A stretch of 64,000 bases of DNA, taken from positions 1 through 64,000 of the forward strand of contig CALWUY010000065.1 in assembly GCA_944384855.1 (NCBI GenBank). Reading direction: 5' to 3'. The number at the start of each line of letters is the position of its first letter. Positions within the stretch are counted from its first letter, which is position 1. The notes under the pieces were generated by a model. The model searched no databases. It was not told the DNA's origin and saw only the letters and a program-made list of their open reading frames with translations. The stretch comes from an uncultured Clostridia bacterium (lineage in GTDB: Bacteria; Bacillota; Clostridia; Oscillospirales; Acutalibacteraceae). Below, piece after piece: positions 37,928 through 45,852 of the stretch. Position numbers and translations under genes: made by a program.

Positions 37928-38758
37928 TTGAAAACTAAACTGGCTGACCGATTCTTTTTGGTTATTTTACTGTTACTCTCAGCGGTATTTATTTTTCCTG
38001 TCTTCATAGTCTTAATAAATTCATTCAAACTGAAATTTTCTATTTCTGCCACCCCGTTCGTGCTGCCTGACAAGGATACTTTCACCGGGCTTTCGAATTA
38101 TATTGAAGGAATAGCCAATACAGGGTTTTGGTCAGCTTTTATGTGGTCGCTGTTTATAACGGTTTTTTCGGTTGCAGTAATAATAATTTTCACTTCTATG
38201 ACCGCATGGTATATTACGAGAGTGAAAAGCCGGTTTAATTCTGTACTGTACTACACTTTGGTATTTTCAATGATTGTTCCCTTCCAGATGGTTATGTTTA
38301 CAATGTCCAAAACGGCAAATGTTTTGGGACTTGATAACCCCGCAGGCATCATTTTGATATATTTAGGCTTCGGAGCCGGGCTTTCGGTATTTATGTTTTC
38401 AGGATTTATAAAAACCGTGCCGCTCGGCGTTGAGGAGGCTGCTAAAATTGACGGCTGCAATACCTTTCAGATATTCTGGAATGTGGTATTTCCCATTTTA
38501 AAGCCTACTGCAATTACAGTCGCCATTCTCAATACCATGTGGATATGGAACGACTACCTGCTGCCGTATCTTGTAATAGGAAACGACTATAAAACAATTC
38601 CTATAGCAGTGCAGTATTTAAAAGGCGGTTACGGCTCTGTAGATATGGGCGCGATGATGGCAATGCTCGTACTTTCCATTATACCGGTTATCATTTTTTA
38701 TCTTTCAAGTCAGAAATATATAATCAAAGGAGTCGCTTCCGGTGCTGTTAAAGGGTAA
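37928..38758 (+). CDS. ABC sugar transporter permease (MalG type)
   Basis: 276 residues, TTG start one base after the previous stop, with AGGAGG 11 bases upstream. Six helices and the EAA loop VEEAAKIDGCNTFQIFWNVVFP near residue 167. The C-terminus ends in VASGAVKG, typical of this half. No ATPase gene accompanies the pair; in Firmicutes a shared MsmX-type ATPase usually serves. Confidence 0.9.
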   Translation: MKTKLADRFFLVILLLLSAVFIFPVFIVLINSFKLKFSISATPFVLPDKDTFTGLSNYIEGIANTGFWSAFMWSLFITVFSVAVIIIFTSMTAWYITRVKSRFNSVLYYTLVFSMIVPFQMVMFTMSKTANVLGLDNPAGIILIYLGFGAGLSVFMFSGFIKTVPLGVEEAAKIDGCNTFQIFWNVVFPILKPTAITVAILNTMWIWNDYLLPYLVIGNDYKTIPIAVQYLKGGYGSVDMGAMMAMLVLSIIPVIIFYLSSQKYIIKGVASGAVKG

Positions 38759-40229
38759 AGAAACAAAATATAAAAAGGAAAGCGGTATTCTGCTTCCGCT
38801 ATCCGCTGTTCCTTCTGATTACGGTATAGGGTCTTTAGGAGAACAGGCATACAGATTTGCGGATTTTTTGAAACAAAGCCGTCAGTCCTACTGGCAGATG
38901 CTGCCGCTGTGTCCGGCGGGCAAAGGCAATTCCCCATACTCAGCGCTCAGCACTTTTGCCGGAGAAATACTCTATATTGATCTGGATATTCTTGCGGCAA
39001 ACAATCTGCTGGACAAATCGGATATTCCAAAAAAATCTTTTTCAAAAAATGTAGATTACAAAGCCGTAAGAAAGTTCAAGCTGCCGCTTTTAAAAAAAGC
39101 GGCAGATAATTTTAATACAAAAGATAAAAACTTTATCAGATTTAAAAATGAAAACAGTTACTGGCTTAAAGATCACTGCCTGTTTATGGCAATGCGGGAC
39201 AATAACGGCGGTCTCCCGTTTCTGAAATGGGACGATATGTTAAAATACCGCATACCTGCCGCTGTGCGGGATTTTGAAAGCTGCTACGGCGACGAAATAG
39301 CTTTTTACGAAATCACGCAGTATTTTTTCTATTCGCAGTTTTATAACCTTAAAAATTACTGTCAGCAAAACGGCGTAAAGCTTATAGGGGATATACCTTT
39401 TTATGTTTCGCTTAACAGCGCGGATGTATGGAGCAATCCCGACTGCTTCCGTTTGGGGCGTGATATGACTCCTGTTCTGGTCGCCGGAGTGCCTCCCGAT
39501 ATTTTTTCAAGCGACGGTCAGTTGTGGGGAAATCCGATATACGACTGGGAATTTCAAAAGAAAACCGATTTTCTCTGGTGGAAAAACCGTCTTATGCATT
39601 ATGCAAAAATGTATGATGTAATCAGAATTGATCATTTCAGAGCATTTGCTGATTACTATGCAATACCTTACGGAAGCAAAAACGCCAAAACAGGAACATG
39701 GGAAAAAGGTGTAGGAATGATGTTCTGGGACTCGGTTAAGCCGTGCATTGCGAATACTGAAATCATCGCGGAAGACCTCGGGGGCGAAACGCCCGAAGTG
39801 GAAAATCTGGTTAAAATGAGCGGTTTTCCGAATATGAAGGTACTGCAATTTGCTTTTTCGGGTGATCTTAAAAACCCTTTTCTCCCCAAAAATTATAACC
39901 GCAACTGTGTATGCTATACAGGAACCCATGACAATGATACGACGCTCGGCTGGTATGAAAAAGCCGGCAAAAAAGAAAAAATGATGTTTGACAGGCTTGT
40001 GTCTGAAGAAGAGTACAATTCCCCGGTGTTCTCACTTATAGCCTACGGTATGAAATCAAAAGCGCGCAATGTAATAATTCCTCTTCAGGATTATCTGCAG
40101 CTGCCTTCGTCCGCCAGAATAAATACTCCCGGCGTTGCGGACGGAAACTGGGAGTGGCGCTTTGAGCCGGATGATCTTACAGATGATCTCGCAAATACGG
40201 TTCTTAATCTCAGCCGGGGACGAAACTGA
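38742..40229 (+). CDS. malQ: 4-alpha-glucanotransferase (amylomaltase)
   Basis: 495 residues, GH77. GTG start at 38742, inside the end of the permease gene (17-base overlap), with AAAGGAG 9 bases upstream. N-terminal SGILLPLSAVPSDYGIGSLG and YWQMLPLCPAGKGNSPYSALSTFAG are hallmark stretches. The nucleophile Asp lies in VIRIDHFRAFADYYAIP near 288, and the acid Glu in IIAEDLGGETPEV near 342; YTGTHDNDTTLGWY carries the third acid. It shuffles alpha-1,4-glucan segments between maltodextrins, extending imported short chains for phosphorylase. Operon context gives the transporter its likely substrate. Confidence 0.94.
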   Translation: MLLKGKETKYKKESGILLPLSAVPSDYGIGSLGEQAYRFADFLKQSRQSYWQMLPLCPAGKGNSPYSALSTFAGEILYIDLDILAANNLLDKSDIPKKSFSKNVDYKAVRKFKLPLLKKAADNFNTKDKNFIRFKNENSYWLKDHCLFMAMRDNNGGLPFLKWDDMLKYRIPAAVRDFESCYGDEIAFYEITQYFFYSQFYNLKNYCQQNGVKLIGDIPFYVSLNSADVWSNPDCFRLGRDMTPVLVAGVPPDIFSSDGQLWGNPIYDWEFQKKTDFLWWKNRLMHYAKMYDVIRIDHFRAFADYYAIPYGSKNAKTGTWEKGVGMMFWDSVKPCIANTEIIAEDLGGETPEVENLVKMSGFPNMKVLQFAFSGDLKNPFLPKNYNRNCVCYTGTHDNDTTLGWYEKAGKKEKMMFDRLVSEEEYNSPVFSLIAYGMKSKARNVIIPLQDYLQLPSSARINTPGVADGNWEWRFEPDDLTDDLANTVLNLSRGRN

Positions 40230-40269
40230 TACTTTACCTAAAATTTACAATAAATATTAAGTGTTTGTA

Positions 40270-40298
40270 TTGTCATTTTCCCGCAATTATGTTAAACT
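40270..40298 (+). promoter_or_regulatory. Promoter of the pyruvate kinase gene
   Basis: TTGTCA (40270-40275), 17-base spacer, TAAACT (40293-40298), 66 bases before the ATG at 40364. Confidence 0.65.
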
Positions 40299-40363
40299 GT
40301 ATACTATGGTTAATTATGGCATATTACCATATCAGATTATTATTTTGAAATGCTGGTGTTATT

Positions 40364-41788
40364 ATGGATAAAAACTTAAGAAAAACTAAAATCGTATGTA
40401 CTTTAGGACCTGCCTGCGAAAGTGAGGAAACAGTTACGCAAATGTGCCTTGCAGGCATGAACGTAGCACGTATGAATTTTTCGCATAACACTCATGAGGA
40501 CCATGAGAAAAGGATAAATACCGTAAAACGCGTACGTGAAAAATTAGGCCTTCCAATAGCCGTATTGCTGGATACTAAAGGACCTGAATACCGCATAAAA
40601 ACGTTTAAGGACGGTAAAATTTTTCTCAAAGACGGCGACAATTTTTCCTTCACTGTCGAAGATATCGAAGGTGATAATACCAGAGTCTCCGTAAACTACA
40701 AAGGCCTTCCCGGCGAACTGGAAAAAGGAGACAGAATACTGCTCAATAACGGTCTTCTGGCTTTTACCGTAATGTCTACCACCGATACGGACGTTAACTG
40801 CAGAGTGGATATCGGGGGAGAACTTTCAAACAGAAAAAGTATGAGTTTCCCAAACAAGACTTTAAAGCAAGTATATTTAAGCGAACAGGATAAAGAGGAT
40901 ATTTTATTCGGCATTAAGCATGATGTCGATTTTATAGCATGCTCGTTTGTATCTTGCCGCCAGGACCTGATTGACGTAAAGCGGTTTTTAGAGGCTAATA
41001 ATGCCGGCCACATAGATATTATTGCAAAAATCGAAAACCGTTCGGGCGTCAACAACATTGAAGAAATATGCGAAGAATGCGACGGCATAATGATTGCCAG
41101 AGGAGATATGGGAGTTGAAATCCCGTTTGAAGAGCTTCCGGCTATACAAAAGCAGCTTATAACCAAGTGCAGACTGCTCGGCAAAAGGGTAATTACAGCT
41201 ACCGAAATGCTGGAGTCAATGATTTATAATCCGCGTCCTACGAGAGCGGAAATCTCCGATGTCGCAAATGCAGTATTCGACGGTACCAGCGCAATAATGC
41301 TGTCGGGTGAAACAGCCGCAGGCAAATATCCGGTACAAGCCGTAGAGGTTATGGCGAGAATAGCTTTTGACGCAGAACAGAATATTCACTACCGCAAGCG
41401 TTTTCTTAATTATTCGTTCAAAATAAAGAATACAGTCGACGCTATTTCACACGCCACCTGCGGAATGGCTATTGATATTGATGCAAAAGTTATAACGGTA
41501 TGTTCGCTTTCGGGCATGACCGCGAGAATGGTATCGCGTTTTCGTCCCGACGCTCCGCTCATAGGACTTACCGCCGATGAGCGCACCTGGCGTGAACTTT
41601 CGCTTTCTTGGGGAGTAATCCCGGTTTTATGCGAAACATTTACTTCTACCGACGCTCTGTTTGAAACAGCGGTAAAGCTCACAAAAGAAACTCTCGGTCT
41701 TAAAAGCGGTGACAAAATAGTTATAACGGGAGGAGAAACTTCCGGCAAATCAGGAAACACCAATATTATAAAAGTAGAATATATTTAG
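40364..41788 (+). CDS. pyk: Pyruvate kinase
   Basis: 474 residues, without the extra C-terminal PEP-utiliser domain of Bacillus enzymes. TKIVCTLGPACESEE and NVARMNFSHNTHEDH at the N-terminus; DTKGPEYRIKT near 68; active-site block DIIAKIENRSGVNNIEEI with Lys and Glu near 220; GDMGVEIPFEELPAIQKQLI; and TATEMLESMIYNPRPTRAEISDVANA near 280. Converts PEP and ADP to pyruvate and ATP. The flippase gene follows after 12 bases. Confidence 0.96.
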   Translation: MDKNLRKTKIVCTLGPACESEETVTQMCLAGMNVARMNFSHNTHEDHEKRINTVKRVREKLGLPIAVLLDTKGPEYRIKTFKDGKIFLKDGDNFSFTVEDIEGDNTRVSVNYKGLPGELEKGDRILLNNGLLAFTVMSTTDTDVNCRVDIGGELSNRKSMSFPNKTLKQVYLSEQDKEDILFGIKHDVDFIACSFVSCRQDLIDVKRFLEANNAGHIDIIAKIENRSGVNNIEEICEECDGIMIARGDMGVEIPFEELPAIQKQLITKCRLLGKRVITATEMLESMIYNPRPTRAEISDVANAVFDGTSAIMLSGETAAGKYPVQAVEVMARIAFDAEQNIHYRKRFLNYSFKIKNTVDAISHATCGMAIDIDAKVITVCSLSGMTARMVSRFRPDAPLIGLTADERTWRELSLSWGVIPVLCETFTSTDALFETAVKLTKETLGLKSGDKIVITGGETSGKSGNTNIIKVEYI

Positions 41789-41800
41789 GAGGTTTGGTAT

Positions 41801-43216
41801 TTGAAAAACAAATATACCACCTTGATTTCCAATACGCTGCTTATAAGTATAGGAACTTTCGGGTCAAAACTGCTCGTATTCTTCATGGTAAGATTCTATA
41901 CAGACTATCTTACCACATCGCAATACGGCACTGCCGACCTTATAACTCAGACCGCAAATCTTCTCTTCCCTATAATTTCTTTCGGTATTACAGAAGGGGT
42001 ATTCCGTTTCGCCCTTGATGCCGAAAGAGACCGGAAAAGTATTTTTACCATAAGCTTTTCGGTAATTACCGCAGGCTCTCTTTTGTTTACGGTTATCGCT
42101 CCGCTGCTAAATCTGATAAATGATTTTAAAAATTATGTATGGCTGATAATTGTATATACACTTGCTGCCTGTTACCATGCGCTCTGTTCTCAGTACATAC
42201 GCGCAATAGGAAAGACTGCCTTTTTTGCGGTTCAGGGTATTATCAATACAATGCTCGTCATTATTCTTAACATCATCTTCCTGGCTTTTTGCAATATGGG
42301 AATATCAGGATATGTGCTTTCGGTAGTATTGGCCGATGCGTTTTGCGCCCTGCTTATTTTCATAAAAGAAAAGCTGTGGAAACTGTTGACCCGCAATATA
42401 CAGAAATCAGACTTTACGGCAATGCTGAAATACAGCATTCCCCTGATACCCACAACGGTATTCTGGTGGATAACAAGCGTTTCGGACAGATACATGGTCA
42501 GAGGGTTTATAGGAAGTGAAGCTAACGGAATTTATGCGGTTTCATATAAGCTCCCTACTCTGCTTACGCTGGCTTCAACTGTTTTTATGCAGGCATGGCA
42601 GTTTTCAGCCGTTACCGAATCGGACGGAGACCCTAAAGAACATGCTAAATTTTTCAGCACAGTCTGGGGATCGTTTCAGTCGGTAATGTTTCTTGTAGGT
42701 TCTGCGGTCATTGTATTCGCAAAGCCCGCTATGAAGATACTTACAACTCCGGATTTCTATGAAGCATGGAAATATGTACCCCTGCTTTCGGTAGCCATGA
42801 TATTTACCTCGTTTACTAATTTTGCAGGAACTGTTTATGTTGTCAATAAAAAAAGCAATATTTCCTTTCTTACCGCATTAGTCGGAGCTGTTACCAATAT
42901 TATACTGAATTTTTTGCTAATCCCTTCTCCGCTCGGAGTTCAGGGCGCGGCACTGGCAACTGTTGCCGGTTATCTGCTGGCGTTCATCATAAGGGCGGCC
43001 ATAGCCAGAAAATATATTCCGTTTGATCTGCACAGTATGCATATTACTGTCAATACTGTCATAATTTTTGTTCAGACAGCTATAATGATTTTTGAGATCA
43101 AATATTGGTTAGTTATTGAGATTCTGCTTCTTATATTACTGGCGGCAATCAATCTGAAATTTATTATGGGATTCATTAACAAATTTTTGCACTCGGTTAT
43201 CAAAAAAAGAACTTGA
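41801..43216 (+). CDS. Polysaccharide/lipid-linked oligosaccharide flippase (MOP superfamily)
   Basis: 471 residues, TTG start with AGGAGG 7 bases upstream. About 12-14 hydrophobic helices. The opening TLISNTLLISIGTFGSKLLVFFMVRFYTDYLTTSQYGTADL-type block and the central FWWITSVSDRYMVRGFIGSEANGIYAVSYKLP segment are characteristic of Wzx/RfbX-like exporters. It would flip undecaprenyl-linked glycans for a surface polysaccharide, although no glycosyltransferases are adjacent. Shares a transcript with pyk by spacing; functional link unclear. Confidence 0.87.
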   Translation: MKNKYTTLISNTLLISIGTFGSKLLVFFMVRFYTDYLTTSQYGTADLITQTANLLFPIISFGITEGVFRFALDAERDRKSIFTISFSVITAGSLLFTVIAPLLNLINDFKNYVWLIIVYTLAACYHALCSQYIRAIGKTAFFAVQGIINTMLVIILNIIFLAFCNMGISGYVLSVVLADAFCALLIFIKEKLWKLLTRNIQKSDFTAMLKYSIPLIPTTVFWWITSVSDRYMVRGFIGSEANGIYAVSYKLPTLLTLASTVFMQAWQFSAVTESDGDPKEHAKFFSTVWGSFQSVMFLVGSAVIVFAKPAMKILTTPDFYEAWKYVPLLSVAMIFTSFTNFAGTVYVVNKKSNISFLTALVGAVTNIILNFLLIPSPLGVQGAALATVAGYLLAFIIRAAIARKYIPFDLHSMHITVNTVIIFVQTAIMIFEIKYWLVIEILLLILLAAINLKFIMGFINKFLHSVIKKRT

Positions 43217-43308: not shown

Positions 43309-43335
43309 TTTTTGCAACTTTTAGTTGCGAAAAAC
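43309..43335. promoter_or_regulatory. Dyad upstream of the HTH-mutase gene
   Basis: GCAAC-TTTTA-GTTGC flanked by T5/A5 runs, just upstream of the promoter. Candidate operator for the HTH domain encoded downstream; inference only. Confidence 0.35.
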
Positions 43336-43371
43336 TCAAATTAAAGTTGGTGGATAGCAGCCTGAACAATT

Positions 43372-43379
43372 GATATAAT
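43372..43379 (+). promoter_or_regulatory. Extended -10 of the HTH-mutase gene
   Basis: TGATATAAT with TATAAT at 43374-43379, 44 bases before the ATG. No consensus -35. ACAAT/ATTGT arms straddle the -10 (43366-43388), possibly a second regulator site. Confidence 0.5.
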
Positions 43380-43422
43380 AATTATTGTCAAAAATACAGC
43401 AACGAAAGGATATTGTTTTATT

Positions 43423-45042
43423 ATGACGATCGGTGAAAAAATTGCAAAACTTCGCATAGCAGCAGATATTTCTCAGGAACAGTTAGCCGAAAAAATTTCA
43501 GTTTCGCGCCAGTCAGTTTCAAAATGGGAAATGGATCAGGCGCTTCCTCAAATAGACAAAGTTCTTCAAATCTGCGAATTATTCGATATTACAACAGACG
43601 AACTTTTGCATGATAAAATCTCAATAGACCGTATTGAACCGGAATCAGACGGAAATAAATATTTCGGCACTGACGGTTTCAGAGGCGAAGCCAATATAAC
43701 TCTGACATCTATGCAGGCCTACCGTGTAGGCAGATTTTTGGGATGGTATTTTTCTTCCGAACTTTCCGGATGCAATAAACCGGGATACCGCCCGCGCATA
43801 GTAATCGGCAAGGATACAAGGCGTTCAAGCTATATGCTGGAATATTCTATTGTGGCCGGTATAACCGCTTCAGGAGCAGACGCCTATATGCTTCACGTTA
43901 CCACCACGCCCAGTGTTTCTTTCGTAACCCGCCAGGATGAGTTTGACTGCGGAATCATGATAACCGCATCTCACAATCCGTTTTATGATAACGGAATAAA
44001 GGTCATCAACCGTTACGGGGAAAAACTTGACGATAATACCACCGCGCTTATCGAAGCTTATATTGACGGAAATCTCAAAGCCTTAGGGGTAAACGGCGCA
44101 GACCTTCCGCTTGCAGTACGGGACCGTATAGGCTGTATAGTGGACTATGTTGCGGGCAGAAACCGCTATGTGGGTTATTTGATTTCAGTAGCGTCAAATT
44201 CCTACAAAAATCTCAGAATAGGCCTTGACTGTGCAAACGGAGCGTCCTGGCAGATCGCAAAATCCGTTTTTGACGCATTGGGCGCTCAGACTACGATTAT
44301 AGGAAACCAGCCTGACGGTCTTAATGTCAATCAGGACTGCGGGTCTACGCACATCGCAAAACTTTGCCAGCTGGTTAAAGATCAGCACCTCGATATAGGT
44401 TTTGCCTTTGACGGAGATACCGACCGCTGTATAGCCGTAGACGAAAACGGAAATGTGGTCGACGGCGACGCTATGATGTACATTCTAGCCAAACGGCTGA
44501 AATCACGCGGAATGCTTAATAAAGATACTGTGGTTGCCACAATTATGTCCAACAGCGGCTTTTTCAATTCGCTCGCGGAAGCAGGAATCAAATGCGAGCA
44601 AACCACTGTCGGAGACCGCTTTGTTTACGAGTGTATGCAGAATAACGATTATTCGCTCGGCGGAGAACAGTCAGGGCATATCATTCTTAAAAAATATGCC
44701 ACCACCGGAGACGGTCTTCTGACGGCTATTATGATCACCGAAGAAATCTGCGACCGCAAGACCTCGCTTGCAAGCCTTGCGGAACCTGTTAAGCTTTATC
44801 CCCAGTACACCAAAAATATAAGGGTCAAAGATAAAGCGGCCGTGCTCTCAGACAAAGATGTTTTAAATGCCAAAGACGAGGTTGAAAAACTCATCAATAA
44901 AAAGGGACGCGCACTGCTAAGGCAGAGCGGTACAGAACCGGTAATACGCATAATGATAGAAAGCGAAAGCGACGATTTATGCCGTAAGTACGCTGATATC
45001 ATCGCAGATGCAGTTATAAAAAACGGTCACTGCGCAAATTAA
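43423..45042 (+). CDS. HTH domain fused to phosphoglucosamine mutase/phosphomannomutase-like enzyme
   Basis: 539 residues. Residues 1-63 are a Cro/CI-type HTH (IGEKIAKLRIAADISQEQLAEKISVSRQSVSKWE type, with the family tail FDITTDELLH). Residues 78-539 are a complete alpha-D-phosphohexomutase: KYFGTDGFRGEANI (81-88 as in GlmM), phospho-serine loop ITASHNPFYDNGIK with Ser183, magnesium loop FAFDGDTDRCIAVD near 330, sugar loop LGGEQSGHIIL near 410 and phosphate-binding RQSGTEPVIRIM near 505. All catalytic residues are present, so the enzyme should isomerise GlcN-6-P/GlcN-1-P or a similar hexose phosphate. One continuous frame, no gap between parts. nagB lies 60 bases downstream. Confidence 0.88.
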   Translation: MTIGEKIAKLRIAADISQEQLAEKISVSRQSVSKWEMDQALPQIDKVLQICELFDITTDELLHDKISIDRIEPESDGNKYFGTDGFRGEANITLTSMQAYRVGRFLGWYFSSELSGCNKPGYRPRIVIGKDTRRSSYMLEYSIVAGITASGADAYMLHVTTTPSVSFVTRQDEFDCGIMITASHNPFYDNGIKVINRYGEKLDDNTTALIEAYIDGNLKALGVNGADLPLAVRDRIGCIVDYVAGRNRYVGYLISVASNSYKNLRIGLDCANGASWQIAKSVFDALGAQTTIIGNQPDGLNVNQDCGSTHIAKLCQLVKDQHLDIGFAFDGDTDRCIAVDENGNVVDGDAMMYILAKRLKSRGMLNKDTVVATIMSNSGFFNSLAEAGIKCEQTTVGDRFVYECMQNNDYSLGGEQSGHIILKKYATTGDGLLTAIMITEEICDRKTSLASLAEPVKLYPQYTKNIRVKDKAAVLSDKDVLNAKDEVEKLINKKGRALLRQSGTEPVIRIMIESESDDLCRKYADIIADAVIKNGHCAN

Positions 45043-45044
45043 GA

Positions 45045-45073
45045 TTGCTAAAATAAATATCTTATGATAAAAT
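45045..45073 (+). promoter_or_regulatory. Promoter of nagB
   Basis: TTGCTA (45045-45050), 17-base spacer, TGATAAAAT extended -10 (TAAAAT at 45068-45073). It overlaps the end of the short gap after the mutase gene, so nagB can be expressed alone. Confidence 0.6.
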
Positions 45074-45102
45074 AGACGTAAAAAGTTTGAAAAGGTGATT
45101 TT

Positions 45103-45813
45103 ATGAATTTCATTAAAGTAGATTCTTATGAACGATTAAGCAAAATAGCAGCTGATATTATTGCCGCTCAGGTTATCCTTAAGCCTGACTGTGTATTAGG
45201 TTTGGCAACCGGATCATCTCCGCTCGGTACTTACGCCAACCTTGCGGAAAAATGTCAAAAAGGTGAACTGGATTTTTCAAAAGTCACATCGGTAAACCTT
45301 GATGAATATGTGGGTCTTGACTCCGGCAACGATCAGAGCTACCGTTACTTTATGAATAAAAATCTTTTCACAAAAATAAACATTGATATTAATAACACCA
45401 ATGTTCCCAACGGCTGCGCGGATGATATAGAAGCCGAATGCCTCCGTTACGATAAACTGATTGAATCTCTGGGCGGTATTGATTTACAGCTTTTGGGCAT
45501 AGGACTTGACGGTCATATAGGATTTAACGAACCCGGAGATAAATTTATCAAAGGCACAAACCTTGTTACTCTTGACCCATCTACAATTGAAGCCAACTCA
45601 CGCTTTTTTGCTTCGGTTGACGATGTGCCCACCAAGGCGGTTACAATGGGTATGGGAGCAATTATGTCGGCTAAAAAGGTTTTGCTTATAGCGAATGGAA
45701 AAAACAAGAAAGAAATTGTTGAAAAGTCATTCTTCGGACCTATAACTCCTTATGTTCCGGCTTCAATTCTCCAGCTTCATAATGATCTTACCGTAATTTA
45801 CAGTGAAAATTAA
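45103..45813 (+). CDS. nagB: Glucosamine-6-phosphate deaminase
   Basis: 236 residues, the short form typical of Firmicutes. GLATGSSPLGTYANLAEK near residue 35, VNLDEYVGLDSGNDQSYRYFM near 66 with catalytic Asp, GIGLDGHIGFNEPGD near 133 with the catalytic His and Glu. It turns glucosamine-6-P into fructose-6-P and ammonia. Together with the upstream mutase it marks the branch between amino sugar breakdown and cell wall precursor supply. AAAGGTG precedes the ATG. Confidence 0.95.
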   Translation: MNFIKVDSYERLSKIAADIIAAQVILKPDCVLGLATGSSPLGTYANLAEKCQKGELDFSKVTSVNLDEYVGLDSGNDQSYRYFMNKNLFTKINIDINNTNVPNGCADDIEAECLRYDKLIESLGGIDLQLLGIGLDGHIGFNEPGDKFIKGTNLVTLDPSTIEANSRFFASVDDVPTKAVTMGMGAIMSAKKVLLIANGKNKKEIVEKSFFGPITPYVPASILQLHNDLTVIYSEN

Positions 45814-45822
45814 CCAAAATTC

Positions 45823-45852
45823 AAAACCGCAGGGATAGTTTCCTGCGGTTTT
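45823..45852. terminator. Terminator after nagB
   Basis: AAAACCGCAGG (45823-45833) and CCTGCGGTTTT (45842-45852), 8-base loop, followed by ATTTTTTT on the plus strand. Could also serve the minus-strand gene ending at 45908. Confidence 0.85.

Follow-up and report, generated by a model that had tools for sequence, protein, structure and literature searches.

A phosphoglucosamine mutase fused to an XRE-type DNA-binding domain in uncultured Clostridia, a probable autoregulator of its own operon

Introduction

Why would a bacterium join a DNA-binding domain to its phosphoglucosamine mutase, GlmM? The question is raised by a stretch of 64,000 nt, here called the window, from an uncultured Clostridia bacterium of the Acutalibacteraceae (GCA_944384855.1, contig CALWUY010000065.1, positions 1-64,000, forward strand). 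In this window a gene on the + strand (43423..45042) encodes a helix-turn-helix (HTH) domain of the XRE type followed by GlmM and lies immediately upstream of nagB. An original prediction, made from these letters alone, proposed a bifunctional protein which is an enzyme and also reports on the hexose phosphate state at promoters, perhaps its own and that of nagB, and which ties wall precursor synthesis to amino sugar breakdown.

The dual role at its own promoter is supported, at the level of sequence, by the pattern of a palindrome found upstream of the gene. HTH-GlmM is probably an active enzyme and at the same time a DNA-binding autoregulator of its own operon, in other words a trigger enzyme. 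What is seen is a conserved fusion with its catalytic motifs, a palindrome nearly fixed in position relative to the promoter, the near absence of this site elsewhere in the window's genome, and a linked nagB.

An HTH domain joined to a complete GlmM

The fusion gene is one ATG-initiated open reading frame (ORF) of 539 codons with zero internal stops, and its 539 aa product includes an XRE HTH (residues 7-61), a variable linker (approximately 64-77) and a GlmM domain (78-531). Pfam HTH_3 matches residues 7-61 (E 8.9e-14; 51.7 bits against a gathering score of 23), as expected for the XRE/Cro-CI type. All four Pfam domains PGM_PMM I-IV lie inside residues 79-529, and the NCBIfam equivalog TIGR01455 (glmM) covers residues 81-531 with 486.4 bits, above its cut-off of 447.55. 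The protein carries the motifs ASHNP, DGDTDR, GEQSGH and RQSGTEP, which we take to be those of the catalytic serine and of the metal, sugar and phosphate loops, respectively. The HTH and the complete mutase originally proposed are therefore both present in a single protein. The span first given to it, 43423..45813, covers two neighbouring genes, the fusion as far as 45042 and nagB up to 45813.

The nearest solved chains by sequence are GlmM enzymes, and their match begins at fusion residue 75-78. Stand-alone GlmM (TIGR01455; 7ojr, 6gyz, 3pdk) shows full-length homology over residues 78-531 but has no HTH. In the window's genome (2,686,215 bases, 97% complete) PGM_PMM_I matches three proteins, of which only the fusion is above the glmM cut-off; the other two reach 135 and 103 bits. 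Since no other protein passes, the cell's GlmM activity must come from the fusion, provided that the genome is complete here.

Compared with the window protein, 33 aligned fusions are on average 69% identical in the HTH, 21% in the linker and 72% in GlmM; the difference between HTH and linker indicates that the HTH is under constraint. The metal, sugar and phosphate loop patterns occur in 80/80 fusion rows (seven duplicates included) and ASHNP in 79/80, while the catalytic serine is invariant in alignment A1, L094 included. L094 is a divergent fusion on a long branch in which the ASHNP pattern is missed and the serine is retained.

Distribution and history of the fusion

The best 80 of 580 related loci from a scan of a species-genome collection were used, and more exist. 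Together with 30 loci from a family search and the window, this gave 111 rows, of which 80 carry the HTH (73 once exact duplicates are removed). The pair of domains first noticed at a single locus thus recurs in one frame, with the catalytic motifs kept, in at least 73 non-redundant loci (two are shortened by a contig start), which rules out an assembly artefact or a split gene. Separate neighbouring HTH and glmM genes were not seen in relatives, a separate HTH frame having been sought only at HTH-less L021. The fusion loci are deposited as uncultured Clostridia, many from rumen or hindgut, and as a group labelled Erysipelotrichaceae, Bacillales, Bacilli or Acholeplasmatales, referred to below as the Bacilli group; one of its members, L086, is so called from its position in the tree, its record saying Clostridia.

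In a sample of 200 genomes of the window organism's family, the window's own included, the fusion is present in 20 (the copy of G027 is split across two contigs). In a phylum sample of 398 genomes, which need not contain the Bacilli group, only the window's genome gave a match (E up to 1e-150) whose start falls in the HTH, so the earlier statement that GlmM normally stands alone was right.

A quick tree of 99 GlmM domains was rooted at its midpoint, with no canonical GlmM as outgroup, and many of its inner branches are weak. Its 15 Bacilli-group rows form one clade (support 100) nested in a clade of 74 rows, which contains every fusion in the tree and three HTH-less rows (L021, L082, L083). 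Under the midpoint root the simplest history would be a single HTH gain and two losses, one in L021 and one in L082 with L083. Given the weak inner branches and the absent outgroup this is a working version only, and the single gain depends on the root.

Three family genomes (G072, G107, G027) have the fusion plus a canonical GlmM. The fusion there may therefore be free to specialise as a sensor.

A palindrome at the promoter of the fusion gene

By reading the upstream regions of the fusions we found the palindrome GCAACYnnnRGTTGC, which was scored over its 12 fixed positions. In the window, predicted operator 1 (43314..43328, GCAACTTTTAGTTGC) is a perfect copy and the sole one in the 2.69-Mb genome. 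Predicted operator 2 (43336..43350, TCAAATTAAAGTTGG) begins 22 bp after it, is weaker (9/12) and abuts the -35 hexamer. The predicted promoter (43351..43379, + strand) is sigma-A-like, with TGGATA (43351-43356) and TATAAT (43374-43379) separated by 17 bp and a TG before the second hexamer, and transcription would start near 43386. The palindrome thus lies upstream of the predicted start, outside the leader; the 55 nt of 43386-43440 fold like shuffled sequences (z -0.19) and gave no sign of a leader RNA element, Rfam not having been run on the window itself.

Of the 73 loci, two had less than 100 nt upstream. In the remaining 71 the palindrome scores 12/12 in 51, 11/12 in six and lower in 14, or at least 11/12 in 57/71, counts which overstate independence because some loci are near copies. 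First-order Markov shuffles gave 12/12 in 0/7100 and at least 11/12 in 0.11%. None of 29 HTH-less upstreams, which were up to 30 nt longer than those of the fusions and include one identical pair, reaches 10/12; these comprise the loss rows L021, L082 and L083, so that the palindrome is absent in the HTH-less members of the clade. It is very improbable, then, that the HTH is passive, a dimerisation or scaffold module beside a palindrome which serves another regulator: site and HTH go together across the tree, and clade members without the HTH are also without the site.

An exact search for the palindrome was made in 40 genomes, 20 with and 20 without the fusion. The window's genome has one perfect site, the one at the fusion. 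A perfect site lies upstream of the fusion in 17 of the 20 fusion genomes; G056 and G197 have 11/12 there, and the start of the G150 gene coincides with a contig edge. In all, 27 perfect sites were counted in the 20 fusion genomes, of which 18 lie at the fusion and nine elsewhere. These nine do not exceed background, and HTH-GlmM therefore looks like a local regulator of a single operon. A wide regulon was unsupported for the perfect site (40 genomes, exact pattern only; degenerate sites were not scanned genome-wide).

Position relative to the promoter is also conserved. At the 52 clostridial loci that score 11/12 or more, a TATAAT of at least 5/6 lies at offset 60 from operator 1 in 46% and at offset 61 in 22%, and the best -35 fit is a spacing of 17 bp. 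The operator centres would be at about -65 (operator 1) and -43 (operator 2) from the predicted start. Binding just upstream of the -35 box, at a set distance, is typical of activators; lambda CI at PRM, for instance, is an XRE activator which touches sigma there. Because the geometry resembles this arrangement, activation is by analogy a little more likely than repression; occupancy of operator 2 might also block the -35 box, and both effects might operate, depending on the protein level. A third, distal copy (at least 9/12) occurs 72-84 bp before operator 1 in 12/52 clostridial loci and is absent in the window. These copies fall into groups around -73 and -83, a distance of roughly one helical turn.

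The Bacilli group has another palindrome. All 15 of its upstreams bear a 16-mer, GTAAA-N6 followed by TTTAC, TTAAC, TTGAC or ATTAC (GTAAA-N6-TTWAC-like), which occurs in 5/56 clostridial upstreams, 0/31 HTH-less rows (two of them without usable upstream) and 27/4500 shuffles. Five of the 15 (L076-L079 and L086) also bear a GCAAC site. In L076-L079 this is a perfect palindrome 28-29 nt before the start codon, near the ribosome site, where it could repress; with the 16-mer lying further upstream in these four, dual control is possible.

Several of these results weigh against autoregulation through the palindrome. Ten of the 14 upstreams below 11/12 belong to the Bacilli group with its other palindrome, whose pattern was defined on the same sequences in which it was counted, and of the clostridial ones L049, L061 and L097 score 9-10 and L072 is without a site. 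The nine perfect sites away from the fusion compare with eight in the 20 fusion-less genomes, none of these eight on the contig of a listed glmM, and with the pattern reversed, as a control, 13 sites were counted over all 40 genomes. Nor does the site show ligand sensing, because XRE proteins often autoregulate.

The last point leads to a rival explanation, plain level control, in which GlmM abundance is set by HTH binding at the operator and nothing is sensed, the enzyme domain being a dimer carrier. GlmM enzymes are dimers, and in the window's genome the perfect site occurs only at the fusion operon. According to the accessible part of PMC12565409, moreover, most XRE regulators autoregulate. 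Level control explains less well why the fusion was retained across 59-83% identity with two inferred losses, an argument that is not decisive; we consider it possible, at appreciably less than even probability.

For HTH-GlmM as an autoregulatory trigger enzyme, the following mechanism may be proposed. The two HTH domains of a GlmM dimer would bind GCAACY-N3-RGTTGC at operator 1, with weaker binding at the second site 22 bp closer to the gene, next to the -35 box. The signal would probably be the state of the active site, with glucosamine-6-phosphate (GlcN-6-P) or glucosamine-1-phosphate bound, or with its serine phosphorylated, and sensing would match the levels of GlmM and NagB to the demand for UDP-N-acetylglucosamine (UDP-GlcNAc). 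That HTH-GlmM senses a ligand, a claim to be judged by itself, has slightly below an even chance of being correct.

The operon and its neighbourhood

In the window, nagB (45103..45813, + strand) encodes a glucosamine-6-phosphate deaminase/isomerase of 236 aa (TIGR00502, 276.4 bits, cut-off 236.9), starts 60 bp after the fusion as the second cistron and is followed by an intrinsic terminator-like hairpin of 13 pairs (45823..45852, + strand). Control by the fusion had been suggested, with a perhaps, for its own promoter and for that of nagB. The first has its palindrome; nagB would be reached as second cistron of the same unit. A separate operator for nagB was rejected, the best match at the gap being a site with two mismatches (45034-45048), and the whole window holds four matches with at most two mismatches against 5.7 expected. 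The three genes before the fusion (38742-43216) read, as ORFs, as 4-alpha-glucanotransferase-like, pyruvate kinase-like and flippase-like; L035 and L037 have the same order.

An LbH gene is next in 47/59 named HTH loci (window counted) and often overlaps the glmM stop by a few bases. Its product resembles the acetyltransferase half of archaeal-type GlmU (TIGR03992 positions 211-390), below the family cut-off. The window locus is without LbH, and the homologue of the window's genome is on contig G000:C1. Among the 51 HTH loci with at least 1500 nt downstream, nagB is one of the next two genes in 24. It lies less than 2 kb from glmM in 14/20 fusion genomes, in 4/14 HTH-less clade members and in 0/115 canonical glmM among the matches listed, 61 of which are in genomes with a listed nagB.

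That the neighbourhood marks the fusion was suggested by a clustering, which placed LbH beside 47/59 fusion and 0/18 HTH-less loci, and was withdrawn because the family search found LbH beside glmM in 7/14 HTH-less clade genomes; the clustering may miss divergent LbH copies. The results of the family search tell against a special tie between this neighbourhood and the HTH. LbH lies within 100 bp of glmM, on either side, in 11/20 fusion genomes, in those seven HTH-less clade genomes and in at least three canonical genomes (G038, G168, G174), and the order glmM-LbH-nagB occurs without HTH in G066 and G160. The operon-linked NagBs did not come out as one clade, in a tree in which long branches meet. 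Since the cluster is found without the HTH, it probably predates the HTH or is unconnected with it. In four HTH-less relatives (G066, G160, G185, G001) glmM, LbH and nagB are side by side. The operon nagB of the Bacilli group looks separately acquired; in the NagB trees a first motif filter dropped 16 of the 41 fetched rows and the second tree dropped three.

Some loci include glmS. It follows glmM in L085, which has the HTH, and in HTH-less L098 and L099, and in L091, of the Bacilli group, a glmS-like gene lies three genes before the fusion, which is followed by LbH and then nagB. A glmS ribozyme (Rfam, gathering score) precedes the downstream glmS of HTH-less L098; none was found at this score at HTH-bearing L085, at HTH-less L099 or at the glmS of the window's genome (L183). 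The contrast between L098 and L085 thus rests on one case each, and L099 is without a ribozyme as well.

Hexosamine supply and the direction of NagB

With the thresholds used, the 200 family genomes include 131 with glmS, 123 with nagB, 111 with nagA, 42 with full-length glmU over cut-off and 133 with LbH. The fusion genomes differ from the other 180 in glmS (5/20 against 126/180; Fisher p 1.2e-4), also at 90% completeness or more (3/15 against 107/143), and in nagB (20/20 against 103/180). The difference in nagA is not significant (14/20 against 97/180). Full-length glmU was found in 1/20 against 41/180 and an LbH homologue in 20/20 against 113/180. As many other genomes match one half of glmU only and LbH is separate in 133, GlmU seems to be split in much of the family.

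In the whole sample nagB accompanies the absence of glmS (60/69 glmS-less against 63/131 glmS-bearing genomes), the pattern expected where nagB replaces glmS. Genomes without the fusion show this negative association as well (nagB in 45/54 glmS-less and 58/126 glmS-bearing genomes). Since 15/20 fusion genomes are without glmS and all 20 have nagB, the operon reads as a synthetic unit, and the pattern favours NagB as the source of GlcN-6-P, via the reverse reaction or salvage. The coupling of synthesis to breakdown, as originally worded, is not supported by these numbers. In glmS-less relatives NagB would probably supply GlcN-6-P from fructose-6-phosphate and ammonia; as a specific claim, we give this reverse reaction there about an even chance. 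The window's organism keeps glmS, nagA and a second nagB, and NagB there may run either way. Its glmS sits among glutamine-using enzymes and the second nagB among sugar-catabolic-looking genes (ORF reading), so the operon nagB is an addition in this organism. The metabolic reading leans towards synthesis in the glmS-less relatives and could go in either direction here.

There are objections to a synthetic NagB. The window's own genome has glmS (G000:C37), nagA and a second nagB, and does not show the absence of glmS; the 2x2 tests make no correction for relatedness, and a gene missing from a draft genome may not be truly absent. In the accessible part of PMC5902328, Akkermansia NagB is described as unable to form GlcN-6-P under physiological conditions (Km 5.5 mM for fructose-6-phosphate and 41.3 mM for ammonium), the organism requiring N-acetylglucosamine (GlcNAc) or N-acetylgalactosamine, and in that of PMC3306399 a Streptococcus mutans glmS mutant with nagB shows no growth without GlcNAc.

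Two other explanations draw on the same data. GlmM and NagB both use GlcN-6-P, and the coupling first proposed, in which NagB drains GlcN-6-P when the mutase is saturated, is in keeping with the glmS and nagA retained in the window's genome, with nagA in 14/20 fusion genomes and with an Akkermansia NagB better at deaminating than aminating (PMC5902328, accessible part). It is rather doubtful nonetheless: 15/20 fusion genomes have no glmS, five of these no nagA either (G004, G107, G150, G126, G027), and in L085 it is glmS itself that comes after the fusion. Alternatively, glmS-less fusion bacteria might depend on imported amino sugars for GlcN-6-P, the fusion tuning the operon to supply. The Akkermansia precedent and the S. 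mutans mutant (accessible parts of PMC5902328 and PMC3306399) would agree with this, as would the many fusion records from gut or rumen samples and the presence of nagA in 10/15 glmS-less fusion genomes. Five such genomes show no nagA, though, and salvage into the wall does not need nagB, which makes this dependence unlikely as well.

Autoregulation and synthetic NagB can be combined. A metabolite-sensing HTH-GlmM would have taken over hexosamine feedback where the lineage mostly swapped GlmS for an ammonia-fed NagB; the mutase would read its own substrate and switch the entry route to UDP-GlcNAc (HTH-glmM, often the acetyltransferase-like gene, and nagB), and the fusion would later have reached rumen Bacilli with its operator re-tuned. 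Two results lower its rating, the presence of the gene cluster in HTH-less genomes and the S. mutans mutant, and as a whole this takeover is improbable, though not remote.

Relation to known systems

BirA, PutA and NadR are trigger enzymes with a DNA-binding domain, an active enzyme and a transcription factor in one chain, and HTH-GlmM resembles them as one chain which would regulate its own pathway. The architecture and the predicted site both agree with this class, although, to our knowledge, no known DNA-binding trigger enzyme carries a phosphohexomutase. The DNA-binding domain of BzdR is of the XRE type. BzdR is the nearest described analogue found, with its DNA-binding domain, linker and enzyme-derived domain in pathway control (PMC3602430, accessible part). 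Its shikimate-kinase-like domain is described there as inactive and now effector-binding, whereas the fusion keeps its catalytic motifs and is the only protein over the glmM cut-off in the window's genome.

HTH type and a palindrome upstream of the own gene are shared with the XRE autoregulators of PMC12565409, whose sites were found in this manner, with experimental tests; neither a GCAAC nor a GTTGC string appears in the paper's accessible text, which does not mention GlmM or a mutase either. In the open literature (subscription papers and preprints being outside this scope) we found, among the leading matches of each search, no HTH-GlmM protein and no account of this operon, and the predicted operator is a new result of this analysis.

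Feedback on hexosamine supply is also exerted by the glmS ribozyme and by the RapZ/GlmZ system. Both act on glmS RNA, while the fusion would act as a protein, at the glmM-nagB promoter.

Biological significance

GlmM lies on an essential cell-wall route. If the reading of HTH-GlmM as an autoregulatory enzyme is true, these bacteria would have a promoter-level, enzyme-borne way to match hexosamine supply to demand, beside the glmS ribozyme and RapZ/GlmZ. The predicted operator combines small size with strong conservation and occurs almost nowhere else in the genome. The locus also raises in testable form an old question, whether NagB may be a natural GlcN-6-P synthase in ammonia-rich guts where glmS is absent.

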